DNA from: a virus
Direction: 5' to 3' (one strand)
Length of the DNA stretch: 30,486 nt
Virus record (IMG/VR): IMGVR_UViG_3300027739_000026
Location: 1-30,486 of that record
In this document: one piece after another, positions 2,093 through 26,803 of the stretch
Layout of the letters: every line of letters starts with the position of its first letter
Position numbering within the stretch: position 1 is the first letter of the stretch
Made by a program: the position numbers and the translations under genes
Notes under the pieces: generated by a model
Database searches by the model: none
Seen by the model: the letters and a program-made list of their open reading frames with translations, nothing else
What the model was told of the DNA's origin: nothing

Positions 2093-2176
2093 TGGAGATG
2101 GTGGGAATCGAACCCACGTTCCTGTCACGCAAATTTAGATACAAGTGTTTGCGTGCCAGCTTGTCCTTTCATCCCC
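2093..2176 (-). tRNA. tRNA of undetermined isotype with an over-long anticodon hairpin
   Basis: The acceptor stem (2094-2100 with 2170-2176, GGGGATG/CATCTCC) and T arm (GTGGG-TTCGATT-CCCAC) are canonical. The middle instead folds into a perfect 8-bp stem CACGCAAA/TTTGCGTG closing a 14-nt loop (CACTTGTATCTAAA), so no normal 7-nt anticodon loop can be placed. Total length is 84 nt. It may be a variant tRNA, an insertion-damaged gene or an intron-bearing one. Confidence 0.6.
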
Positions 2177-2180
2177 GTAG

Positions 2181-2251
2181 CGAAGGCAGAGGGTTTTGAT
2201 CCCTCGACACTAACTGGACAGGTTAGTATGTTACCATTACACTATGCCTCC
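2181..2251 (-). tRNA. tRNA-Asp (anticodon GTC)
   Basis: Acceptor stem 2182-2188 with 2245-2251 (GGAGGCA/TGCCTTC). The anticodon arm CTAAC-CTGTCCA-GTTAG gives GUC. The T arm is GAGGG-ATCAAAA-CCCTC. The end of the upstream coding gene overlaps its 5' strand by 10 bp. Confidence 0.9.
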
Positions 2252-2499
2252 AAAAATTTTACTTCCACTTTGTAAGGTTCTATTCTTTCTATTTCTTCTG
2301 GATAAAAATTATAATCCAGCAGTACTTGAAGTTGATTTTGCACTAATCTACATTGTATTGCAAAGTCAGGAACACTGTCAACAGACTTAGGAGTTCGTTT
2401 AGCTACGTTCTCAATAAAAACAATGTCCTCTTTTGCTCTTTTAATACAACTAATCAAAAGCTCCCTTATCTTTATTTCCTGCTCAGTCCTATCCTCCAT
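2242..2499 (-). CDS. Small acidic helical hypothetical protein (85 aa)
   Basis: The ATG at 2499 has a strong AAGGAG site. The 85-residue product (starts MEDRTEQEIKIRELL) is highly charged and predicted mostly helical: an amphipathic helix over residues 1-35 and a second over about 48-65 (IQCRLVQNQLQVLLDY). No Cys cluster, transmembrane segment or enzyme motif is visible. The stop codon lies inside tRNA-Asp, so the gene is embedded in the tRNA operon. The upstream 40-residue membrane peptide overlaps its first codons. Function unknown. Confidence 0.72.
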   Translation of the reverse strand: MEDRTEQEIKIRELLISCIKRAKEDIVFIENVAKRTPKSVDSVPDFAIQCRLVQNQLQVLLDYNFYPEEIERIEPYKVEVKFLEA

Positions 2500-2611
2500 A
2501 ATAGCTCCTTTTAATTAAAATATCTATTGATACACTAAGAGATAATAAAATATAAATAGCAAATACAAAATAAATATAAAAGCTTACAATAGAAAAAAAT
2601 ATATCAATCAT
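2489..2611 (-). CDS. 40-residue hydrophobic peptide
   Basis: An ATG at 2611 preceded by GGAG (7-nt spacing) opens a 41-codon frame that ends at TAG 2489, overlapping the start of the next gene by 11 bp. The product is one long hydrophobic helix (residues about 4-28: IFFSIVSFYIYFVFAIYILL) with a short basic tail (LIKRSYYGG). The good ribosome site, the coupling overlap and the uniform hydrophobicity argue for a real gene that length-limited gene calling would miss. Single-helix membrane peptides of phages include toxins, lysis regulators and exclusion factors; nothing here tells which. Confidence 0.55.
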   Translation of the reverse strand: MIDIFFSIVSFYIYFVFAIYILLSLSVSIDILIKRSYYGG

Positions 2612-2623
2612 AAAATCTCCAGG

Positions 2624-2697
2624 CTGCCCCCACTAGACTCGAACTAGTATCTCCAAAGTTAACAGCTTTGCGCTCTGACCAATTGAGCTAGAGAGCA
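2624..2697 (-). tRNA. tRNA-Asn (anticodon GTT)
   Basis: Acceptor stem 2625-2631 with 2691-2697 (TGCTCTC/GGGGGCA, with G-U pairs). The anticodon arm CAAAG-CTGTTAA-CTTTG gives GUU. The T arm is ACTAG-TTCGAGT-CTAGT. It is the first tRNA of the cluster after the promoter at 2713-2740. Confidence 0.92.
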
Positions 2698-2702
2698 GTA
2701 TT

Positions 2703-2740
2703 GATAGGGGCTATTATACCCCTATCTATTAAATTGTCAA
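2703..2740 (-). promoter_or_regulatory. tRNA-cluster promoter with a palindrome over the -10 box
   Basis: On the minus strand TTGACA (2735-2740) and TATAAT (2713-2718) are 16 bp apart, just upstream of tRNA-Asn. The -10 lies in the 8-nt centre of a perfect 8-bp inverted repeat, GATAGGGG (2703-2710) and CCCCTATC (2719-2726). This is suited to a repressor operator or to a hairpin at the RNA 5' end. The start point would fall inside the left arm. Confidence 0.65.
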
Positions 2741-2955
2741 GACACTTTCTTAACTTCTAATTTTCCATTAACCTTTCCATACGCTAGGAACAGATTAACC
2801 AGTGTCAAATAAAAGCTTTTTGGGAAGACAGCCTTCCCGCGGTTCTTGCCTAAGAGTGGAAAAGATAGTCTGAAGAATCTCCTAGAGTTTCTTTTTAGCT
2901 TTGTACGCAGAAAAGCTACGAATTCTTTATTATCCACAACTTTGAAATATTCCAT
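2737..2955 (-). CDS. Small basic hypothetical protein (72 aa)
   Basis: The ATG at 2955 has AAAGGA 6 nt upstream. The protein is strongly basic, with a KLKRNSRRFFRLSF patch at residues 19-32 and further Lys/Arg residues throughout (about residues 37-47 and the C-terminal VKKVS). Nucleic-acid binding is plausible but no fold is recognised. The gene starts 3 nt after the stop of the upstream membrane protein, so the two are probably translated from one message. Its last codons overlap the -35 box of the tRNA promoter. Confidence 0.65.
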   Translation of the reverse strand: MEYFKVVDNKEFVAFLRTKLKRNSRRFFRLSFPLLGKNRGKAVFPKSFYLTLVNLFLAYGKVNGKLEVKKVS

Positions 2956-2957
2956 AA

Positions 2958-3278
2958 TTATCCTTTGTTTGTAAATCTTTGTGTATATTGCTTAAAGGGC
3001 TTGTTAACTAATGTATATGTTGCTAACGAAATAACAACAGATAAGAACCATTCAAGTAAGGATTTCCATTCAATAAACTGACCTTGCCCAATACCAACAT
3101 AATACAGTGCGAGACCCCAAGCTGCTGTAACTAGGGGAAGTGCAACTTTGTAGAAAGTTGGATGAAAGTCAAACTCTTCGCTCTTAACAATAAACTTTCT
3201 AACTAACCACTTAATAAACTCTACTGTAAATGTTGTTAAAGCGCCTGCTGATAATACGGTTGTTACATCACTATTCAT
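2958..3278 (-). CDS. Three-helix membrane protein, possibly holin-like
   Basis: This 106-residue protein starts at ATG 3278, overlapping the upstream stop (TAATG) with GAGGAA upstream. Hydrophobic segments lie at about residues 9-31, 44-64 and 74-92, followed by a basic tail (KPFKQYTQRFTNKG). Size, helix count and a charged C-terminus resemble class I holins. However, no endolysin gene is adjacent and the gene lies in the minus-strand (probably early) block, so a holin role is only one option. An alternative is a small membrane protein that modifies the host envelope. Confidence 0.7.
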   Translation of the reverse strand: MNSDVTTVLSAGALTTFTVEFIKWLVRKFIVKSEEFDFHPTFYKVALPLVTAAWGLALYYVGIGQGQFIEWKSLLEWFLSVVISLATYTLVNKPFKQYTQRFTNKG

Positions 3279-3534: not shown

Positions 3535-3744
3535 TCACTCCGTATTTATCTCTTCTAAAATTCCAACTAAAGCTTTAGGAGATATGATATTATTTTTTAC
3601 CATATAATTTAACAAAATAAGTAAAGTTTCTTTACTTATAATTAAAGAGTCTTCCGTAAGGATAAAAGCATTACTACCTTTATCCTTACGAATTACTAGT
3701 GTATTAGTCCCAGGAAGGGAAAATATTGATACCTTATCCTTCAC
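3535..3744 (-). CDS. Small hypothetical protein (69 aa, GTG start)
   Basis: The frame opens with GTG at 3744, inside the 3' end of the preceding gene (11-bp overlap), and has no later ATG near the N-terminus. There is no strong ribosome site, so translation is probably coupled. The protein begins VKDKVSIFSLPGTNTLVIRK and looks like a short beta hairpin followed by helices (ISKETLLILLNYMVKN, SPKALVGILEEI). No motif is recognised. Its place in a run of overlapping small genes supports it as real. Confidence 0.6.
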   Translation of the reverse strand: MKDKVSIFSLPGTNTLVIRKDKGSNAFILTEDSLIISKETLLILLNYMVKNNIISPKALVGILEEINTE

Positions 3745-4030
3745 TTTTTTCGCTTTCGTTCACACGTTTTTCTAGTTCATCTAGAAATTCTTCAGATGAT
3801 ACATATTGCCCAAGTGATAGCATAACTGTAGCTAACGCACTGTCAATATCGTCATCAAAGCTCTTTACACCTGCTTCAACTTCTCCAAAATGTTCATTGT
3901 CTCTGCTTCCAACTATTTTCAGAGTCCCATTAACATCCCATTCCTTGCCTTCCTTCTTCATAGAAATATCAAATAAAATTCTATGTGAGACTAGTGTATC
4001 TACAAACTTTACATCGGTCTTTTTATCCAT
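3734..4030 (-). CDS. Hypothetical protein (98 aa)
   Basis: The ATG at 4030 has AAGGA about 10 nt upstream and lies within the last 22 bp of the exonuclease gene. The N-terminal two thirds look beta-rich (VKFVDTLVSHRILFDIS, WDVNGTLKIVG). The C-terminus is acidic and helical (SSEEFLDELEKRVNESEKSEG). No catalytic or metal motif is visible. The overlap with the exonuclease gene suggests joint expression, so a partner or regulator role is possible but not shown. Confidence 0.68.
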   Translation of the reverse strand: MDKKTDVKFVDTLVSHRILFDISMKKEGKEWDVNGTLKIVGSRDNEHFGEVEAGVKSFDDDIDSALATVMLSLGQYVSSEEFLDELEKRVNESEKSEG

Positions 4031-5421
4031 TTTGAATAATCCTTTATCCTCTCGTATAATTTCTCTAAAATAATAACATCAAATTTATTATGATCCAAAA
4101 CTTTTGCAATAGCTTTTGGGTCTCCAAACCTTGCTCTAAACCATACATTGTATTCTAGTTTAGTTTTACCAGGAATCCCTAAGAATTTAGTTATGACTTC
4201 TAACGACTTTCGTGATGTTGCGTACAGCCTTCTCACATGAAAAAATAAGTCCCAATGACACATTTCACCAAACTTAGGAAAATCCAATTTAAAAAAGTCT
4301 GCCCTTGCTCTCGAAAATGGGATGTCAAACCCTGTATTATGACTTCCAAAACCCTCAGCTATGTAAGTACCAGCAGAAGTTCCTAACGTAATAATTTCTT
4401 GTTTCCCAGATGGAGTTACAGATACAATAGTGACAGGTTCAAAATTGCTCTGAAACGCACCTAGCTTACATAAATCTGCGTTCTTTAGTAATCTTAGAGG
4501 TCTGACAGAGCCTAAAAACCTTAATCTTTCGGTTTTTCCGCCCAAAATATTAATAGCTCTCATATAAGGATGTTCTCTGTCGTATTGAGTGGATGAACAC
4601 GCAAAACCCAAGTTTTTTAGACAGAAAATAGCTTTATCTAAGACCTCCCCTTCTTTTTGCGTGGCAGTTATTTGAAAACCATGCTCTCCGGGTTTTCTAT
4701 CTTTTTTAAGTGGTTGATTAATTGTACCCTCGCCATCAAAGAAACCTGCTAACCACCCGGCATCATATGTTTTATCTGCATTCCAGACTGTAAGAAGACG
4801 CTTCATTCTGTCTCCTGGTTTTAGCTCAGATGCGGTTTTCCATTGCCACTGGTCTCCACCACTTCCTTTTCTGCATCTCACTAACCATTTATGATCAAGT
4901 GTAGATACAAGCTTTGTACCATCAGATAAAGTAAGTTCACACGTCTCTCTTACATCTCTTCCAGTACCAGTAACTACAGCTTTTTTATACTGTCGTCTAC
5001 CGTTAAATAAAGGCAACTTGTCATCAAAGGCTAAGAGTTCATCACCTACTTTTAGAGTTTCAACAGGCACCCAGGTTAAATCACCTTTTAGAATCCGATG
5101 ACCGGGTGTTAAACAACCGTAATATGTTACTATAATATCATATTTTCTTAGTTCTTGTAGCAATTCGTTTACTATTCTTTTATCAAAAACACCATCAAAA
5201 ATTTCTTTCTTTGTTACAATGCTGTAAGCTATCTTATCACTTCCTAAAGGTTTTATACACCAAGTAAGCATAAAGTCAAAATCAGCTTTTAGACCGGATG
5301 TTTCAATATCTAGAAAACCAATTTTCTTATTCTCCCACCAATCATATCTTATTAAACCTTTCTTAAAACAATTAGGATGTGATTTGATACTGTGTCTATG
5401 TATGCATTTCGGTTCAATCAT
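4009..5421 (-). CDS. RNase H-fold 3'-5' exonuclease interrupted by an intein
   Basis: The 470-residue ORF is two exteins (residues 1-102 and 363-470) around an intein (103-362). Joined, the exteins give a 210-residue DEDD-type exonuclease-like protein, closest to YprB/RNase_H_2 proteins. Exo I is FLDIETSGL (36-44, D39 and E41). Exo II is the region IIVTYYG + TGFDIPF, split exactly at the intein junction (D366). The C-terminal LDHNKFDV (442-449) supplies Exo III-type residues. An N-terminal Cys/His segment (CIHRHSIKSHPNC) may bind zinc. The protein probably acts on DNA or RNA ends during replication. The start overlaps the upstream HTH gene (ATGA). Confidence 0.82.
   Translation of the reverse strand: MIEPKCIHRHSIKSHPNCFKKGLIRYDWWENKKIGFLDIETSGLKADFDFMLTWCIKPLGSDKIAYSIVTKKEIFDGVFDKRIVNELLQELRKYDIIVTYYGCLTPGHRILKGDLTWVPVETLKVGDELLAFDDKLPLFNGRRQYKKAVVTGTGRDVRETCELTLSDGTKLVSTLDHKWLVRCRKGSGGDQWQWKTASELKPGDRMKRLLTVWNADKTYDAGWLAGFFDGEGTINQPLKKDRKPGEHGFQITATQKEGEVLDKAIFCLKNLGFACSSTQYDREHPYMRAINILGGKTERLRFLGSVRPLRLLKNADLCKLGAFQSNFEPVTIVSVTPSGKQEIITLGTSAGTYIAEGFGSHNTGFDIPFSRARADFFKLDFPKFGEMCHWDLFFHVRRLYATSRKSLEVITKFLGIPGKTKLEYNVWFRARFGDPKAIAKVLDHNKFDVIILEKLYERIKDYSKWIKRPM
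4336..5115 (-). mobile_element. Intein with single-motif LAGLIDADG homing endonuclease
   Basis: The 260-residue insertion begins with Cys (CLTPGHRIL, block A) and has block B STLDH (TxxH type, residues 174-178). It carries one LAGLIDADG motif, LAGFFDGEG (224-232). It ends with block G YIAEGFGSHN followed by Thr as the +1 extein residue. All residues for splicing are present: Cys1, block B His, terminal His-Asn, +1 Thr. It therefore looks active. The single endonuclease motif implies action as a homodimer. It sits at the Exo II active-site motif, a typical conserved target. Confidence 0.93.
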
Positions 5422-5792
5422 CTATGTTCCTTTCTAGTCAGAATTGAAATCGAGTCAGATTCCTTATAACCCATCTCTTCAAAAACTTGAATGAGGGACG
5501 GGTCTGAAAAATCTCCACCTAAAATAAACGCAATCCTGTCAGTTATTCTGTTTATAACAGTTAGTATTGTTTTTCTATCAAGAGACAGTAATCTAGATAT
5601 TTCAGAAAAATTAAAACCTTCGAACATGGCAACAAGAACATCTTCCTCTATCTTAGAAATAAGACTGTTCCTCTTCATGTCATTAACACATTTTTGGATA
5701 AGCAAACAGTTATTATAAACATCACTTTCAATGTTTGGTTTAGCCAAAACGTATGGCATGGCTTTAATATATTCTCTAATTATAATGCTCAT
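5418..5792 (-). CDS. Helix-turn-helix protein, sigma region 4-like
   Basis: This 124-residue protein starts at ATG 5792, about 13 nt after the start point expected from the consensus promoter at 5812-5840. Residues 53-87 (AMFEGFNFSEISRLLSLDR and the following helix) have the pattern of a sigma-factor region 4 or LuxR-type HTH. The flanks are helical. Sigma-like or transcription-regulator activity is inferred from the HTH only; no region 2 is present. It is the first gene after its own promoter and overlaps the exonuclease gene by ATGA, so it may control or be co-expressed with it. Confidence 0.7.
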   Translation of the reverse strand: MSIIIREYIKAMPYVLAKPNIESDVYNNCLLIQKCVNDMKRNSLISKIEEDVLVAMFEGFNFSEISRLLSLDRKTILTVINRITDRIAFILGGDFSDPSLIQVFEEMGYKESDSISILTRKEHR

Positions 5793-15213: not shown

Positions 15214-16449
15214 ATGACAATTTATCAAGAAACTTGCAGGGTATGTAATTCGTCTTTAGTAGATGTTTTAAATTTAGGGAATTTGTATCCATCAAATTTT
15301 GTGGATGTCAAAGAAGTACACATGTTTGAAAAGGCACCACTTGTTTTAGCAGAGTGCGAAAATTGTGGACTTGTACAACTTAGACATACGGTTGATTTAG
15401 ACACTATGTACAGACAGTATTTCTATCAATCATCCCTAAACAAAAGTATGGTCAGATCATTAAGCAATGTTGCAGATGAAATTGTTGAATTTGTAACAAT
15501 AAATCCAAATGACACTATTATTGATATTGGATGTAATGACGGAACATTCTTTTCGTTTTTTCCAGATGATATATTTAAAATAGGCTTTGACCCTGCCTTG
15601 AATTTAAAAAAGTACGCAGAGAAAACATGTGATGTTTTTATCAATGATTATTTCTCAACAAACTTGTTAACTGGAACCAAAGCAAAACTTATTACAGCAA
15701 TCGCAATGTTTTATGATTTACCGTCACCTATTAAATTTGCTAAGGATGTTGTTGATGTGTTAGCAGACGACGGAGTCTTTGTTGTTCAATTCACCGACCT
15801 AAGATCAATGCTAGAAATAAACGCTGTAGATAATCTATGCCATGAACATTTAGAATATTATCGCTTGCAAGATGTAATAAACATTCTAGAACAAGTTGGT
15901 TTAAAAGTATTCCATGTTTCTAGAAACGATACCAATGGTGGAAGTATAAGAATATTTGCATCCAAAGGTAGTTATGATGTTAGAAACAGTGTAGAACTTG
16001 AACTTCAGGAAGAAAAGCACTTTTTCATTCACGATTCAATTAAAAAGTTTTCACACAGGATTAATGCAATTAAAGAGAAATTCATGCAGTTTTTGAGAGA
16101 AACAAATAGTTTTACTATTTACGGACTCGGAGCTTCAACAAAAGGAAACACACTTTTACAATACTTTGGAATAACACCTAGCTACATAGAGAAAATAGGA
16201 GAAGTTAATTCTGATAAATTTGGTAAAGTTACTTTAGGAACTAATATTCCCATTATTCCAGAATCACAAGCTCTCGAAGAAAACCCAACAGCTTTTCTAA
16301 TCCTCCCCTGGCACTTTATTAAGTCGTTTTTAGCATCTAAATCTGACTATATAAACAATGGTGGTATCCTAATTGTTCCATTACCCGAACCTGGATTTTA
16401 CTTTAAGAAAGACAACGAACTAGCATTTGTATCGATTTTAAACCTATGA
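15214..16449 (+). CDS. SAM-dependent sugar C-methyltransferase-like protein
   Basis: The 411-residue layout matches the NovU/TylC3-type family: an N-terminal zinc-binding part (CRVCNSSL at 8-15 and AECENCGLVQL), a Rossmann methyltransferase core with IIDIGCNDGTFF (SAM motif I), and a C-terminal second Rossmann-like part (TIYGLGASTKGNTLLQY, LPWHF). These enzymes methylate a carbon of dTDP-keto-deoxysugars. It heads a coupled cassette with GNAT, DegT-type aminotransferase and glycosyltransferase genes, which suggests a branched amino-deoxysugar. The exact substrate cannot be read. Confidence 0.85.
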   Translation: MTIYQETCRVCNSSLVDVLNLGNLYPSNFVDVKEVHMFEKAPLVLAECENCGLVQLRHTVDLDTMYRQYFYQSSLNKSMVRSLSNVADEIVEFVTINPNDTIIDIGCNDGTFFSFFPDDIFKIGFDPALNLKKYAEKTCDVFINDYFSTNLLTGTKAKLITAIAMFYDLPSPIKFAKDVVDVLADDGVFVVQFTDLRSMLEINAVDNLCHEHLEYYRLQDVINILEQVGLKVFHVSRNDTNGGSIRIFASKGSYDVRNSVELELQEEKHFFIHDSIKKFSHRINAIKEKFMQFLRETNSFTIYGLGASTKGNTLLQYFGITPSYIEKIGEVNSDKFGKVTLGTNIPIIPESQALEENPTAFLILPWHFIKSFLASKSDYINNGGILIVPLPEPGFYFKKDNELAFVSILNL

Positions 16450-16886
16450 ACATAGAGAAATTAACGCATGCAAATTTGGAACAGTTGCATTATTTTCTGA
16501 CTAGAAATGATTTCAGATCAGAAAACTTTTATCCTCATCCATTCACCCTAGACTATTTGGTTTGGTTATTGGTAAGAAGAACAAAAGATTTTTACTGTGT
16601 AATGCGAGATGGAGAAAAAGTAGTCTCTTACGGAATGTTAAGAGGTTTCGAGGAAGGGTTTGAAATTCCAAGTCTTGGAGTAGGTGTCGATAAAGACTAC
16701 AGAGGTAAGGGAGTTGGAAGATTTATGTGCAACTATTTACACTTTGTTGCTAAACTAAAAGGATGCACAAAAGTAAGACTTCGCGTAAATAAAACTAATA
16801 CAACAGCAAAAACTCTTTATGAGTCTTTGGGGTATGTGTTTAGAGACTTTGATGATGAATACTTGGAAGGGTTTATTGATTTATGA
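16446..16886 (+). CDS. GNAT-family N-acetyltransferase
   Basis: The 146-residue protein has the acetyl-CoA loop VGVDKDYRGKGVGRFM (78-93, RGKGVG) and the C-terminal strand-helix TKVRLRVNKTNTTAKTLYES LGY typical of GNAT folds. Start ATG 16446 overlaps the methyltransferase stop (ATGA), and its own stop overlaps the aminotransferase start. In sugar pathways such enzymes N-acylate the amino group set by a DegT-type aminotransferase, which is the next gene. Confidence 0.88.
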   Translation: MNIEKLTHANLEQLHYFLTRNDFRSENFYPHPFTLDYLVWLLVRRTKDFYCVMRDGEKVVSYGMLRGFEEGFEIPSLGVGVDKDYRGKGVGRFMCNYLHFVAKLKGCTKVRLRVNKTNTTAKTLYESLGYVFRDFDDEYLEGFIDL

Positions 16887-17983
16887 AAATCCCATTTGCA
16901 AAACCAGACATACACGAAAGAGATTCTGATTATGTAGTTAATGCGATTAATTCAGGGTGGATTTCCGATGGAGAATATATACATCTTTTTGAAAGTCGTC
17001 TAAAAGATATTCTTAAATCAAAGTATGTTCTTACAACATCTAATGGCACATCGGCACTAAACCTAGCGTTGTTAGCCGTAAAAGACTATACAGACAAGCG
17101 ATCAATTCTTGTACCCGCATTTTGTTTTCATGCAGCAGCCAATGTAGCTTTACAACTAGGCTTTACACCAGTTTTTTATGACGTTGATCCTCATACGATG
17201 CAGGCAGATATTAAATCTTTAGAAAGTAAAGTTGGGTCTTCTACCACTGCTGCTATTGTTGTAGTACATAATTACGGATATGTTTGTAAAGAGGTACCAT
17301 TTTTAGAATTACTAGCAACATATTATAACGATGCTCTCTTGATTGAAGACTGCGCCGAAGCTATTTTTTCTACATACCCCGGAACAGATATTCATGTCGG
17401 GAACAAAGCAGACATTGGAACATTCAGTTTACACGCTACAAAAACATTAACTACCGGAGAGGGCGGACTTATTACAACGCAGCAAACTATCTTAAATGAT
17501 TATTTAATGCTATGCAGAAGTCACGGACTAGAAAAACGAGGTTCTTATAATCACATAATTCCAGGTAATAACTTCAGAATGAGTAACATTCTTGCTGCGT
17601 TTGGATGTGGTCAATTAGATTATTATCCTTATCTGGTAGAAAGAAAACTACACATTCAAAATAGGTACTTTGGATTATTAAATAGTATTGCAGAATTTTT
17701 ACCACCGTTCCAAGAAACTTCCACTATCTGGTCTTTACCCGTTAGAATTACACCAGAAGTGTTTAAGTATTCTAGGGATGATGTTATGTTTATATTACAA
17801 GAACATGGTATAGAAACAAGACCAGGATTTGTATCTTCAAATAAACTTAAGTATTTTGAAAAAAGTGATACACCTGTTGCAGATATTTTATCTGATACAG
17901 TTCTTGTTTTACCTGCCTTTACATCAATACACGATCATGAAATAAAATTTATTTGTGATACTTTGTTATCACTTAGGAGATAA
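16883..17983 (+). CDS. DegT/DnrJ/EryC1-family PLP sugar aminotransferase
   Basis: This 366-residue protein starts MKIPFAKPDIHERD and shows the family hallmarks: TSNGTSALNLAL (52-63, cofactor phosphate loop), LIEDCAEAIF (153-162, D156 to the pyridine ring) and SLHATKTLTTGEGG (182-195, K187 the Schiff-base lysine). It would place an amino group on a nucleotide-linked ketosugar. It is coupled (ATGA) to the GNAT gene before it. The set C-methyltransferase, acetyltransferase and aminotransferase fits final steps of an acylamino-sugar, with the first steps supplied by the host or another region. Confidence 0.93.
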   Translation: MKIPFAKPDIHERDSDYVVNAINSGWISDGEYIHLFESRLKDILKSKYVLTTSNGTSALNLALLAVKDYTDKRSILVPAFCFHAAANVALQLGFTPVFYDVDPHTMQADIKSLESKVGSSTTAAIVVVHNYGYVCKEVPFLELLATYYNDALLIEDCAEAIFSTYPGTDIHVGNKADIGTFSLHATKTLTTGEGGLITTQQTILNDYLMLCRSHGLEKRGSYNHIIPGNNFRMSNILAAFGCGQLDYYPYLVERKLHIQNRYFGLLNSIAEFLPPFQETSTIWSLPVRITPEVFKYSRDDVMFILQEHGIETRPGFVSSNKLKYFEKSDTPVADILSDTVLVLPAFTSIHDHEIKFICDTLLSLRR

Positions 17984-17985
17984 CT

Positions 17986-18219
17986 ATGGGAGCAGAAATT
18001 AAAAGTTTAGGAATTTTGATAGATGATTTAATCACCACAAGTATGAAACTTTGGCATCTACAAGAAATTTATAACAGAGATGTAATAACGGACGAGGAGC
18101 TTGGTCAAGCTTTCAGAAAGATACAGAAATTAAATGTCCGAAGAAACGCTATTATGAATGCTATTGATGAAATTTCTCAGCTTGGTTTATTTTCAACAAC
18201 TGAAAAAACATATAAGTGA
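17986..18219 (+). CDS. Small helical protein of sugar-cassette type (77 aa)
   Basis: ATG 17986 has AGGAG close upstream. The helical sequence includes LGILIDDLITTSMKLWHLQEIYNR, a pattern (short helix, LIDxL...K.WH..) that I recall from small proteins encoded beside glycosyltransferases in phage and bacterial sugar clusters, where its role is unknown. The rest (ITDEELGQAFRKIQKLNVRR) is a charged helix. The stop overlaps the next start. It may be an adaptor for the neighbouring glycosyltransferases. Confidence 0.65.
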   Translation: MGAEIKSLGILIDDLITTSMKLWHLQEIYNRDVITDEELGQAFRKIQKLNVRRNAIMNAIDEISQLGLFSTTEKTYK

Positions 18220-19652
18220 AAATGATTGCAGTTACACACCCAGGAAAGATTGGTGATACTCTTTATTCTTTACCAACCGTAGAAAAATTAAGTGAAATTC
18301 ATAATACAAAAGTAGATTTTTATACTAGTGACTTTTGTAAGAACTTAGAAAGTTTTATTCTTTACCAACCATATATAAATAACTTTTATATCAGCCCAGG
18401 TTATACAATACAGCATATGAGCTGTGGAGTACAACCCTGGCAAATGCCTGTACATGATTTAGGTTACACACAAGTATATCATCTGGGTTTTAAGTCTTTT
18501 CCACATATACCCTTACATGCTTTTATTGCCAGACAAACAGGTGTTGAAGTTACTAGTATTGAATATTTTATTCCAGATTACGAAACATTAAAAGAACCAT
18601 ATATAACATTATGTTGTCATGGGGATGTTCGTTATCTAGATATTTACAAAGAATTTATAGATCACTCTTCTATACCAGTTGTAAATGTTGGGGCAAAGCA
18701 TGAATATTTAGGAATAGGTATTGATAAAACAGGGATGGATTTCTTAGATACAGCAGTGTGGATTTCAAAATCTATTGGCTTTATTGGGGCAGGGGCAACT
18801 TATGTTTTAGCAGAGGGATTTCCAATACCCAAGATTTTACCACATGACGGAAGAAGTTTCGACCTATCACACGTAATACATGATCCATATCACAAATATC
18901 CAATAAACCCAACGTATACAACTTTTATTAAGGAACTAGGATTTATGCATACACTATCAAAAACTTTAAAACCAGATGATTATTCTTATTTGACTAATCA
19001 TGTTCAGCACATCTTAAACATTTTGGATCACTTAAAACACAACAATATTGAACACAGGTTTGAACATGAGCATAGAAAATGGGAATACGGTCTAGCTTAT
19101 AAAGCTGTAGATAGTCCAGATATTAAAACAATTATGGATGTTGGTGGCGGTGGAAGTATCTTTGCACCAGCTATGGGATGGATAGGAAAAGATGTTTTAA
19201 CAGTAGACCCAGGCGATGTAGGTAAATGGATTTCAAACCAGAGTTCAAAAATCGGAAATACTCTTAGATTTGTTCAAGAGGATTTTTCATTTTTTGAAAC
19301 AGAAGAACTATTTGATGCCGTTGTTTCTTTAAGTGTTATTGAGCATGTTTATTATGATTTAGATTTCTTTAAGAAGCTGTTAAAGTTTGTTAAACCGGGT
19401 GGAATTCTTGTACTAACTACGGACTTTCATCCTAGTGGAAATCAAATTGTTGGTGGTCATGTTAGAACATACAATAAAGAAACTTTATTAAATTTAGGAA
19501 ATATTGCTAAAGAATATGGTTTTGATTATTATAAAGGCAATCCAGACTATGAATATTTTGGAGCGCATGTTAATGGATGTGATTTTGCGTCACTTGTTTT
19601 AAGGAGAGGTTTTGATGAAGAAAATAGCACTATGTATCCCAACACTAAATAG
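18216..19652 (+). CDS. Fusion: GT9-like glycosyltransferase + SAM methyltransferase
   Basis: The 478-residue protein starts with THPGKIGDTLYSLPTVEKL, the N-terminal signature of heptosyltransferase-like (GT9) enzymes. Its second half has a class I methyltransferase core: IMDVGGGGSIFAPAMGW (SAM motif I), VLTVDPGD, FDAVVSLSVIEHVYYDL, KFVKPGGILVLTTDF. It may glycosylate a target and methylate the sugar or an adjacent group. The start is GTG 18216 (overlapping the upstream stop) or ATG 18222; neither has a clear ribosome site. The end overlaps the next gene by 38 bp. Confidence 0.8.
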   Translation: MKMIAVTHPGKIGDTLYSLPTVEKLSEIHNTKVDFYTSDFCKNLESFILYQPYINNFYISPGYTIQHMSCGVQPWQMPVHDLGYTQVYHLGFKSFPHIPLHAFIARQTGVEVTSIEYFIPDYETLKEPYITLCCHGDVRYLDIYKEFIDHSSIPVVNVGAKHEYLGIGIDKTGMDFLDTAVWISKSIGFIGAGATYVLAEGFPIPKILPHDGRSFDLSHVIHDPYHKYPINPTYTTFIKELGFMHTLSKTLKPDDYSYLTNHVQHILNILDHLKHNNIEHRFEHEHRKWEYGLAYKAVDSPDIKTIMDVGGGGSIFAPAMGWIGKDVLTVDPGDVGKWISNQSSKIGNTLRFVQEDFSFFETEELFDAVVSLSVIEHVYYDLDFFKKLLKFVKPGGILVLTTDFHPSGNQIVGGHVRTYNKETLLNLGNIAKEYGFDYYKGNPDYEYFGAHVNGCDFASLVLRRGFDEENSTMYPNTK

Positions 19653-20289
19653 ATATGATTTATTAATTAAAGCTTTAGAGTCAGCAGAGAGAGGTAACGT
19701 TATTCCAGATGAATACTGGATTGTAGATAACGGAATGCGGAGTGATCTTCAACTTCTAATACCACCTGAGATTAGACAAAAAGTAACAATTCTACGATTT
19801 GGTTATAACTTAGGTGTAGCTGCTAGTTGGAATCAGTTTCTAAAGTTTGCAGGAACTGGCAAAACTCTAATTATCTGTAACGACGATGTTGAGTTCTTCC
19901 CAGACACTATAGAAAAATTAATAAATAACTACGAAGAGGATTTTGTAATATTTCCAGGTGGAGTACCATCTGCAAACTCTTTCTCTTGCTTTTTAATACC
20001 AGAGAAAGTTTACAGAACAGTTGGGTTGTTTGATGATACCATTTCACCGCAATATGCTTATTTTGAAGACAATGATTACCATTACAGAATGTTACAACAG
20101 GGTTTTGATTTGAAGGGAATTCCTGAATGCAGATTAGGACATGTCGGGAGTGCCACTGTAAACTCTATGCCACACGCAGATCGAATAGCACATCATGGAA
20201 AATTTAAAATAGCGCGAGAAAACTATATCAGAAAATGGGGTGGACAACCCGGCGAAGAGAAGTTCAAAACTCCGTACAATGAGAGCTAA
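19615..20289 (+). CDS. GT2-like (GT-A fold) glycosyltransferase
   Basis: ATG 19615 is chosen over TTG 19612, with AGGAGAGG upstream. The 224-residue protein has the GT-A start KKIALCIPTLNRYDLL, the loop WIVDNGMRS, NLGVAASWNQFL, the DxD-type metal motif ICNDDVEF, and YFEDNDYHYRM in the acceptor region (family 2 ED motif). It would transfer a sugar from a nucleotide donor. It ends directly before the terminase gene, linking the sugar cassette to the structural operon. The acceptor could be a virion protein or DNA. Confidence 0.85.
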   Translation: MKKIALCIPTLNRYDLLIKALESAERGNVIPDEYWIVDNGMRSDLQLLIPPEIRQKVTILRFGYNLGVAASWNQFLKFAGTGKTLIICNDDVEFFPDTIEKLINNYEEDFVIFPGGVPSANSFSCFLIPEKVYRTVGLFDDTISPQYAYFEDNDYHYRMLQQGFDLKGIPECRLGHVGSATVNSMPHADRIAHHGKFKIARENYIRKWGGQPGEEKFKTPYNES

Positions 20290-24979: not shown

Positions 24980-25002
24980 TCTAAAGGAGCGTACTAATTA
25001 CT

Positions 25003-25917
25003 ATGGCTGATGAAAAAAGAATTCAAGAAGCTATTGCGTCGCTAGTAAAAGACAAGAGCAAAAGAGACGCTTTAGCTCAAATTATCGTGGAATATGTACA
25101 GCCAAATCATATTACAGGCGAGTTCGTTAACGGTTTATTAACTACAAGAAGTTTAAAACCGGGCGATAGCCTTGTGAAAAAGATTAGAAAAGGTATTGAA
25201 GTTAGAACTTTAGTACCCGGTGCTATACATTTAGCCAGCGAAATTACTGTAAGCGAAAGAATGAACTATATCCTAGACGGAGCTGATGTCAAAGTTACCT
25301 ACAATGCGTGGGAAATGGATAGCGGTGAAATCGGTACAGTTCAAGAAATAAAAGCAGAAATGGCTGCAAAGCTAAAAGACTTTTATTACAACAAATTGTT
25401 TACAGCCTTAAGTACAGTTTGGAGTGCAGTAAATACTCCTAGTAACTATACTTCAGTTGGTGGAGCATTAACAGCGACAGCTCTAGAAGCGGCTATTAAT
25501 AGAATCAATCAAACAACAAGTGGCGCAAAAGCTATTGTTGGTATTAGATCATTGGTTACACCTATTACTAAGTTCGGAGCATTCTGGACTGATGGTACAA
25601 ATTATCAATCTTCAGACGCAATCATTAATCAAATTATGGATACTGGAAGACTTGGTAAGTACTACGGAGTACCTATTATAGCGATTGATCAAATCTACAA
25701 CAACCCAGAAGATTATGCAACTATGCTTCCTACTGACAAAGTTCTTATTGTCGGAGAGAGCGTTGGCGAATTCATCACTTATGGTGATGTAAAGACTAAG
25801 CAATGGGAAGACATGAATGTAACTCCTCCTCAATGGATGTTAGAGTTATACCAACAATTCGGTTTAATTCTGGATCGTTGTGAGGGAATCTACGTACTCG
25901 ATAATGTAACTACCTAA
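25003..25917 (+). CDS. Major capsid protein (unspliced reading, tail encoded by the intron)
   Basis: The 304-residue protein lies between decoration and connector genes and has the profile of an HK97-fold capsid: N-arm helices, GVPIIAIDQIYNNPED, VLIVGESVGEFITYGD, and a C-terminal QWEDMNVTPPQWMLELYQQFG segment. Exon 1 proper ends at 25863 (codon 287, Gly). The remaining 54 nt (LILDRCEGIYVLDNVTT and stop) belong to the group I intron. Splicing replaces them with exon 2 (26706-26759), giving 304 residues again. GGAG lies 13 nt before the ATG, an unusually long spacing. Confidence 0.9.
   Translation: MADEKRIQEAIASLVKDKSKRDALAQIIVEYVQPNHITGEFVNGLLTTRSLKPGDSLVKKIRKGIEVRTLVPGAIHLASEITVSERMNYILDGADVKVTYNAWEMDSGEIGTVQEIKAEMAAKLKDFYYNKLFTALSTVWSAVNTPSNYTSVGGALTATALEAAINRINQTTSGAKAIVGIRSLVTPITKFGAFWTDGTNYQSSDAIINQIMDTGRLGKYYGVPIIAIDQIYNNPEDYATMLPTDKVLIVGESVGEFITYGDVKTKQWEDMNVTPPQWMLELYQQFGLILDRCEGIYVLDNVTT
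25864..25917 (+). other. Intron-borne recoded copy of the capsid 3' exon
   Basis: The first 18 intron codons encode LILDRCEGIYVLDNVTT plus TAA, in frame with exon 1. Exon 2 encodes MIIDNAQGIYVLDNVTT plus TAA, the same length. The last ten residues are identical, yet eight of those ten codons differ synonymously; overall 33 of 54 bases match. Purifying selection on the protein best explains this, so the copy is probably translated from unspliced message. Confidence 0.9.
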
Positions 25918-26705
25918 GTATGAAAATTATTTGTAGTAGCTGTCAAAAAGAATTTACTAAAATTAAATCATCAAAAGATGATGGTTTATGCGGTAAATGC
26001 AGAAGTAGTAAAAACTACTTAGCAAATGTAGACAGTTATAGAAAAACAAAAACTTGCCCAATATGCGGAAAAACAATCTTAAAAAACTCTAATTACTGTG
26101 GTTCTTGCTCTCAATATGGAGAAAAGAATCGTATGTACAAAGATGGAAGTAAAGCATCAACAAGAGTTTGTAGTAAATGTGGAAGTAAAATATCAACAGG
26201 TTCTATAAAAGGTTTGTGTAGAACATGCTATTTTATCGAAAGAAAAGAAAACTGCAACAGAATTTACAGCCTAGACCAATATAAGATATGGCGAACTAGT
26301 GTATTTGAAAAATTTAATTATACCTGTTGTATGTGCGGAAAACATGGATACATGAATGCACACCACATTTACCCTAAAAGAGATTTCCCAGAGAAAGTTT
26401 TTGATATAAATAATGGTATTACTTTATGTAGTTCCTGCCATGAAAAAACATATGGCAAAGAGTACGAATATATAGATTACTTTACAAAAATCATAGCCGA
26501 ATTAAAACTCCGTGAACACGGTGAACCCTGGAATGGGAATGCCGTACCAAGCCCTTTATGGGAAGGCGTAGAGACTAGAGGTGAAATAAAATCCTCCAAG
26601 AGCGCGGGGCAACCCTTGAGAAATCAAGAAGAAGACATAGTCCGAGCTTACGGGAAAGATAACCGTAAGAAGTCAAAGATAAAGAGCTTTGACGATAACA
26701 AACTG
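25864..26705 (+). mobile_element. Group I intron (842 nt) in the major capsid gene, with HNH ORF
   Basis: The 5' splice site follows AATTCGGT (25856-25863). The guide GCCGAATT (26496-26503) pairs with it over 8 bp with the required U-G at the cut (P1). AATCAT (26489-26494), just 5' of it, pairs with ATGATT starting exon 2 (P10). Core: P2 26510-26521; GACTA 26573-26577 with TAGTC 26638-26642 (P7); P7.1 26578-26596; P8 CTTGA-GAAA-TCAAG 26615-26628; P9 26647-26669; P9.2 26672-26693; terminal G 26705. P7.1 suggests an IA type. The HNH ORF lies in the P1 loop. Confidence 0.95.
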
Positions 26706-26759
26706 ATGATTATTGACAACGCACAAGGTATTTACGTTCTAGACAACGTAACAACTTAA
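25920..26759 (+). CDS. HNH homing endonuclease, intron-encoded, reading through the ribozyme core
   Basis: ATG 25920 is 2 nt after the unspliced capsid stop with no ribosome site, so translation probably reinitiates after the capsid gene. Residues 1-105 hold three CxxC...CxxC zinc ribbons. Residues 134-175 are the HNH domain (CCMCGKHGYMNAHHI, N165, CSSCH). From about residue 190 the frame runs through the ribozyme core (GNAVPSPLWEGVETRGE is a typical group I core read as protein) and in frame into exon 2. It would cut intronless capsid alleles and is made only from unspliced RNA. Confidence 0.9.
   Translation: MKIICSSCQKEFTKIKSSKDDGLCGKCRSSKNYLANVDSYRKTKTCPICGKTILKNSNYCGSCSQYGEKNRMYKDGSKASTRVCSKCGSKISTGSIKGLCRTCYFIERKENCNRIYSLDQYKIWRTSVFEKFNYTCCMCGKHGYMNAHHIYPKRDFPEKVFDINNGITLCSSCHEKTYGKEYEYIDYFTKIIAELKLREHGEPWNGNAVPSPLWEGVETRGEIKSSKSAGQPLRNQEEDIVRAYGKDNRKKSKIKSFDDNKLMIIDNAQGIYVLDNVTT
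26706..26759 (+). CDS. Major capsid protein, exon 2
   Basis: Eighteen codons, MIIDNAQGIYVLDNVTT plus TAA, joined by splicing to exon 1 in phase 0 (after Gly287). The start is fixed by the P10 pairing (ATGATT with AATCAT at 26489-26494) and the preceding terminal intron G (26705). The same bases also end the HNH ORF in the same frame. Confidence 0.88.
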   Translation: MIIDNAQGIYVLDNVTT

Positions 26760-26770
26760 TTTATAAAACT

Positions 26771-26803
26771 TGATAATGGGGGGAGAAAATCTCCCCCCTA
26801 ATC
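26771..26803 (+). terminator. Very strong G/C hairpin after the capsid gene
   Basis: GGGGGGAGA (26778-26786) pairs with TCTCCCCCC (26790-26798), loop AAA, extended by TGAT/ATCA outside. There is no U-tract, only TAATCAAAATAAGG with the next ribosome site, so it is more likely an mRNA-stabilising or partial-termination structure that sets capsid level above downstream genes. Confidence 0.6.

Follow-up and report, generated by a model that had tools for sequence, protein, structure and literature searches.

A probable mobile group I intron in the last part of a phage capsid gene, carrying a recoded copy of the coding sequence that it displaces

The DNA analyzed here, called the window, is a virus contig of 30.5 kb (30,486 nt; IMGVR_UViG_3300027739_000026). 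Its capsid gene lies downstream of the terminase, presumed portal, and scaffold-like genes, and is interrupted by an intron (Table 1). Just upstream of the terminase gene (15214 to 20289) are methyltransferase-, acetyltransferase-, sugar aminotransferase-, and glycosyltransferase-like genes, perhaps a surface-sugar island. On the minus strand are a cluster of nine tRNA genes (104 to 2697) and an exonuclease-like gene (RNase_H_2; 4009 to 5421) with an apparent intein that has LAGLIDADG motifs and extends from CLTPGHRIL... to ...GSHN-T.

Table 1. Features in and around the capsid gene of the window
Feature	Position(s)	Strand	Basis
Terminase gene	20290		Terminase PHROG match
Presumed portal gene	21845		Position only
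Scaffold-like gene	23354		Scaffold PHROG match
Ribosome-binding site AAGGAG of the capsid gene	24984..24989	+	Read in sequence
Major capsid gene, exon 1 (287 codons), with CAATTCGGT at its end	25003..25863	+	ORF, PHROG, Foldseek
ATGAATGTA (M-N-V) before TPPQW in exon 1; V where 76/77 ordinary copies have P	25813..25821	+	Comparison with relatives
842-nt group I intron, preceded by U (25863) and closing with G (26705)	25864..26705	+	Guide pairing, Rfam, core fold
Tail 1, intron-borne substitute exon, LILDRCEGIYVLDNVTT + TAA, in frame with exon 1	25864..25917	+	Translation, protein-conserving divergence from tail 2
HNH endonuclease frame	25920..26759	+	ORF; Pfam HNH_2 8.5e-7, HNH 2.5e-6
P10 strand AATCAT, pairs with exon 2 ATGATT	26489..26494	+	Guide pairing
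Internal guide GCCGAATT, the P1 strand; its partner in exon 1 is AATTCGGT, with G.U at the splice junction	26496..26503	+	Guide pairing
Ribozyme core, P3 to P9.1; P7 AGACTA (26572-26577) and GAAGACATAGTCC (26631-26643)	26504..26705	+	Rfam, fold, read in sequence
Exon 2 = tail 2, MIIDNAQGIYVLDNVTT + TAA, family-consensus capsid end	26706..26759	+	Translation, comparison with relatives
Terminator-like GC-rich hairpin 3′ of the capsid gene	26778..26798	+	Read in sequence

The capsid protein matched the PHROG major head protein (E = 1.6e-6), and the top Foldseek matches of its AF2 model were HK97-fold capsids and encapsulins at probability 1.00 (model pLDDT 65, moderate). From the PHROG profiles and this AlphaFold model of moderate confidence, we identified the gene product as a predicted HK97-fold major capsid protein. 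The protein matched no Pfam family, a search of the INPHARED phages gave no match and no annotated relative, and a PDB sequence search with the capsid profile returned nothing credible. In the predicted model the last 28 residues form two long strands (277 to 291 and 296 to 303), and thus a truncated capsid protein would be expected to misfold.

The preliminary description of this locus had proposed an 842-nt intron with both borders fixed by a single guide. When we checked these claims by guide pairing, Rfam, and the core fold, every coordinate held. The intron interrupts the capsid gene 17 codons from its end and contains, in order, tail 1 and its stop codon, the HNH gene, the guide, and the ribozyme core; exon 2 follows. 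The guide (AATCAT-A-GCCGAATT, 26489 to 26503) pairs over 8 bp with exon 1 to form P1, whose splice-site pair is U.G, and over 6 bp with exon 2 to form P10. No other exact match occurs anywhere in the window, and the second-best P1 anywhere in the intron has 4 bp. The ribozyme matched Rfam Intron_gpI with a score of 29.8 bits (E = 2e-5), below the gathering score of 50. The lowest free-energy fold of the 212 nt from the guide onward (26494 to 26705) has stems in the order expected for P3, P4, P5, P6, P7.1, P8, P9, and P9.1 (z = −2.3), the stem names being our own assignment.

Read through without splicing, the capsid open reading frame (25003 to 25917) continues beyond the 5′ junction (25863) into intron sequence, where it terminates with LILDRCEGIYVLDNVTT and a stop. 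Translation bore out the earlier statements that this tail is in frame, has the length of exon 2 (17 codons plus a stop), and shares its last ten residues, and that unspliced and spliced RNAs both encode a capsid protein of 304 amino acids. A DNA repeat search of the window for the tail duplication found nothing. The tail copies are too diverged as DNA, and so the duplication is visible only at the protein level: 21 of 51 nt differ, giving 5 amino acid changes versus 12.0 expected at random (P = 0.0005).

We used the capsid family to search IMG/VR for relatives. The majority lack an intron, and their capsid proteins end as exon 2 does, with QQFG-MIIDNAQGIYVL... The preliminary description had named intronless relatives with ends unlike both tails as grounds for refuting it, and this comparison thus came out in its favor. 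Five further distinct elements of the same design were present, four of them LAGLIDADG introns and one an HNH-bearing intron. The four (in L004, L018, L049, and L099) share site A, ∼17 codons upstream of the window site, between the T and the G of the ATG codon before N-P-T-P-P-Q-W, and each has a LAGLIDADG gene. The fifth (in L294) is at a third site, site C, at LEL(Y), about five codons before the window site. There are thus six distinct elements, three insertion sites, and two endonuclease families. An assembly chimera was considered and rejected: the elements are on six contigs, with differing sequences and sites.

The unspliced and spliced lengths are equal in all six elements (304/304, 304/304, 307/307, 300/300, 303/303, and 248/248, the last for the part read). 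In each, tail 1 falls in the P1 loop, with the 5′ splice site before it and the guide after it, and the guide lies between tail 1 (or the HNH gene) and the core. The hallmarks of group I introns, a 3′ U of exon 1 paired to a G of the guide and a terminal G of the intron, are likewise present in 6/6. All six matched Rfam Intron_gpI (E = 7.5e-13 to 2.4e-5), with only L294 above the gathering score (53.9 bits). At site A the P1 pairing covaries between guide and exon 1 (GACAU with GUGUC, GAUAU with GUAUC), and the guide directly precedes a P2 hairpin whose stem differs in each sequence and whose loop is a GNRA in each. Of the five elements outside the window, four have a weak P10 or none, and the P1 of L099 is only 4 bp. 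It is mainly the five further elements, with their two other sites, the two endonuclease families, and the exact length match, that support the earlier proposal that capsid synthesis would not depend on splicing.

Introns in the first third of the same capsid gene are ordinary and have no tail. L032 and L033 (3165 to 4005) and, as a second intron, L294 (about 2165 to 3000) share one site, where each has a group I intron with a LAGLIDADG-type gene; in L032 a stop comes soon after the 5′ splice site. A substitute end was found only where it is short. Near the start of a different capsid-like gene, L101 has a related LAGLIDADG group I intron (1180 to 1920), also without a tail. A pattern scan gave at least 124 phage group I cores; among the 124 listed, a test for duplicated ends of at least 12 amino acids recovered only the two already known capsid contigs, from which we estimate that the substitute-tail design is rare. 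The other matches in the survey were rejected as tandem introns, unrelated endonucleases, or low complexity.

The endonuclease genes are of two families. The ATG of the window HNH gene is two bases 3′ of the tail 1 stop and has no ribosome-binding site of its own, which suggests coupled reinitiation; the site-A LAGLIDADG starts have their own GAGGT motif. Residues 5 to 176 of the window protein contain a double zinc ribbon and an HNH motif with zinc-binding cysteines (PHROG HNH, 1e-13). It has no close relatives in IMG/VR, and its best INPHARED matches are 27 to 49% identical. Pfam LAGLIDADG_3 was found in 3/3 of the site-A endonucleases tested. The window HNH frame is open through the ribozyme core and exon 2, and the L049 endonuclease frame (4990 to 5541) is also open through its core; these frames could possibly produce a fusion protein. 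L294 has an HNH remnant homologous to the window HNH (3677 to 4251), without a start codon or the N-terminal half, yet both of its tails are intact. The design may therefore outlive the endonuclease.

Both tails appear to be under selection as protein. Within each genome, comparison of tail 1 and tail 2 gave pS values of 0.70 to 1.10 and pN values of 0.10 to 0.20, and amino acid changes were well below those expected from the same number of random changes for every pair (P = 0.0005 each). The tail 1 sequences of the four homologous site-A introns, compared with one another, gave pS values of 0.81 to 1.13 and pN values of 0.04 to 0.21. Tail 2, which is capsid coding only after splicing, is intact and consensus-like in 6/6. 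Because both tails are conserved as protein and tail 2 is usable only once spliced, translation of both RNAs into capsid protein is the most economical interpretation. Synonymous recoding beyond saturation was not significant (82 versus 74.4 expected, z = 1.4); synonymous divergence is at saturation, not above it, and thus does not demonstrate selection for recoding as such.

Conservation of tail 2 also bears on whether the ribozymes are alive. Each element could instead be an endonuclease gene with a replacement C terminus and a dead ribozyme, capsid protein being made only with tail 1 and the core and exon 2 being remnants. Tail 1 is intact in 6/6, the window Rfam score is below gathering, and in fungal hybrids the native atp6 and cox2 tail was not found in mRNA (PMC3630166). 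However, in 6/6 tail 2 is uninterrupted and in phase, and tail 1 is no closer than tail 2 to the family consensus; guides match and covary with exon 1, and the cores fold. We therefore judge a dead ribozyme to be unlikely.

Alternatively, these could be ordinary spliced introns whose tail 1 goes unused, having simply been brought along when a related phage recombined with this one. Tail 1 could then have been conserved in the donor before capture, and 65 of 82 relatives are indeed closer to the window tail 1 than the window tail 2 is. We give this very little credence, given that the four homologous site-A introns keep tail 1 open and protein-conserved with saturated synonymous sites (the pS and pN ranges above), that lengths match exactly in 6/6, and that among 124 other phage group I cores listed there was no case beyond the two known contigs. 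The final residues of tail 1 and tail 2 are alike within each phage (DNVTT/DNVTT, DNVTT/DNVTA, GGLS/GGLT, LKVA/IKVA, DVTTLA/DVTSLA, and DITSLA/DITSLA). Such likeness to the resident tail 2 would be expected under co-conversion of the intron and adjacent exon 2, or under joint inheritance.

Tail 1 and tail 2 might also specify two purposeful capsid isoforms that work differently in the shell, splicing setting their ratio; two intact, slightly different ends are, after all, kept per genome. Equal lengths, the mostly conservative nature of the changes (23/29 with BLOSUM62 scores of 0 or more), and the fact that intronless relatives manage with one end make this quite unlikely.

The changes between the tails are not evenly spread. 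Over the six elements, 16/42 of the first seven codons have amino acid changes versus 13/128 beyond (Fisher P = 1e-4); this cutoff was picked after inspection of the data, and a cutoff-free permutation gave P = 0.002. The P before TPPQW, conserved in 76/77 ordinary copies, is replaced by V in three of the site-A tail 1 sequences and by C in the fourth, i.e., altered in 4/4 versus 1/77 (P = 3e-6). In the tail 1 at site C, the Y, Q, and G of YQQFG are changed, whereas ordinary copies have Y and G in 77/77 and Q in 71/77 (R in the rest). Since exon 1 plus tail 1 would otherwise rebuild the uninterrupted target, the likeliest cause of the junction changes is immunity from the element's own endonuclease. 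They could alternatively reflect RNA constraints or relaxed selection. Specifically, tail 1 begins immediately after the 5′ splice site, where the guide can reach it, and the changes might prevent misfolding of P1 or competition between tail 1 and exon 2 for guide pairing. This explanation, a rival to the immunity part only, is possible but less likely: the invariant P codon at site A, a few bases into the intron, is changed in 4/4 elements although 3/4 have little or no P10.

The same V occurs outside introns. Exon 1 of the window reads NVTPPQW, not NPTPPQW, and this V is probably the scar of a former site-A element. The intronless L020 (4793 to 4906) has as its only copy a V-type end, otherwise seen only in element tails, probably an intron-loss scar; if the L020 phage is viable, the V-type end is functional. 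L022 has a further V-type sequence, with the contig end falling inside its tail.

We consider it quite likely that the window contains a mobile group I intron in the 3′ end of an essential capsid gene, its P1 loop filled with a recoded copy of the displaced coding sequence. The anatomy, the equal lengths, the protein-level conservation of both tails, the recurrence, and the concentration of changes at the junction can all be read in the sequences. The mechanism that we propose would combine splicing, use of both products, coupled HNH translation, and self-immunity. On the primary transcript, ribosomes would finish exon 1, enter the intron, read tail 1, and stop before the ribozyme, producing full-length capsid protein; in the window, reinitiation at the HNH start, two bases further on, could follow. 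In folded transcripts, the guide would pair with exon 1 and exon 2, and splicing would restore the native tail. Capsid protein would thus come from both RNAs, and the endonuclease from unspliced RNA at no cost in capsid. Alteration of tail 1, greatest at the junction, would shield the element from its own endonuclease, and divergence of the tails elsewhere would reduce recombination between them that would delete the element.

The usual view is that survival of the host requires its group I introns to be spliced efficiently, and that an early stop keeps ribosomes out of them. If capsid protein is made from spliced and unspliced RNA alike, splicing efficiency would no longer be a matter of life or death for the phage. 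By bringing along the coding sequence that it displaces, the element would have freed itself from the need to splice and so could occupy the structural gene with the highest expression and have its endonuclease made from unspliced RNA. These elements make testable both the competition between splicing and translation and the way in which a homing element spares its own copy. They also carry a warning for annotation: gene finders will call a complete capsid gene and overlook the intron and exon 2.

Among known systems, the phage group I introns that contain HNH or LAGLIDADG genes (T4 td, SPO1, LittleE capsid) have the same ribozyme core, endonuclease ORF, and insertion into a conserved gene. 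Capsid-gene introns such as that of LittleE exist in phages, but no such tails have been described there (PMC3706429). A stop codon soon after the 5′ splice site is usual in group I introns (PMC3073962), and the unspliced product is then truncated, whereas here the stop follows a complete substitute end. In keeping with the preliminary description, which knew of no phage group I intron of this kind, we found no phage intron described in open-access text as carrying a substitute exon that can be translated. ShiLan-type insertions similarly indicate that host protein can still be made from a phage gene that has taken up an HNH element, but they are read through in frame, with no intron found and no duplicated end (PMC11855218).

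The nearest relatives in design are mobile endonuclease ORFs of fungal mitochondria that have inserted C termini, in Allomyces atp6 and in Glomus atp6, atp9, cox2, and nad3 (PMC3630166), with further examples in Phlebia atp6 and cox2 (PMC4019555). As here, an endonuclease gene near the 3′ end of an essential gene brings an in-frame replacement C terminus, the native end is displaced downstream, and the proteins are similar while the DNA has diverged (PMC3630166). The fungal parallel drawn at first reading is thus real, except that splicing does not restore the native tail there: the inserted end, which is donor-like, replaces the native end, the native atp6 and cox2 ends were not found in mRNA, and no ribozyme that removes the element and inserted tail has been described (PMC3630166). 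In the phage elements, by contrast, the tail is in a group I P1 loop, and the native tail 2 is conserved too. With an inserted C terminus, an endonuclease, and a displaced native end, together with a core and guide, the window element works like a fungal replacement-C-terminus ORF but is not a member of that group.

On balance, we favor the view that these are splicing-optional phage group I introns, natural counterparts of recoded-rescue gene drives with a cleavage-resistant copy, which originated in a single capsid gene on three or more occasions. Home-and-rescue designs are one type of recoded-rescue drive. Cleave and Rescue is another (PMC7951863). As proposed for the phage elements, such drives pair a nuclease with a cleavage-resistant recoded copy of essential coding sequence that guards against gene conversion; they are engineered, Cas9 based, and without splicing, and so the likeness is by analogy only. 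The phage elements would join the recoded-rescue strategy of fungal mitochondria and engineered gene drives to a ribozyme still able to restore the native end.
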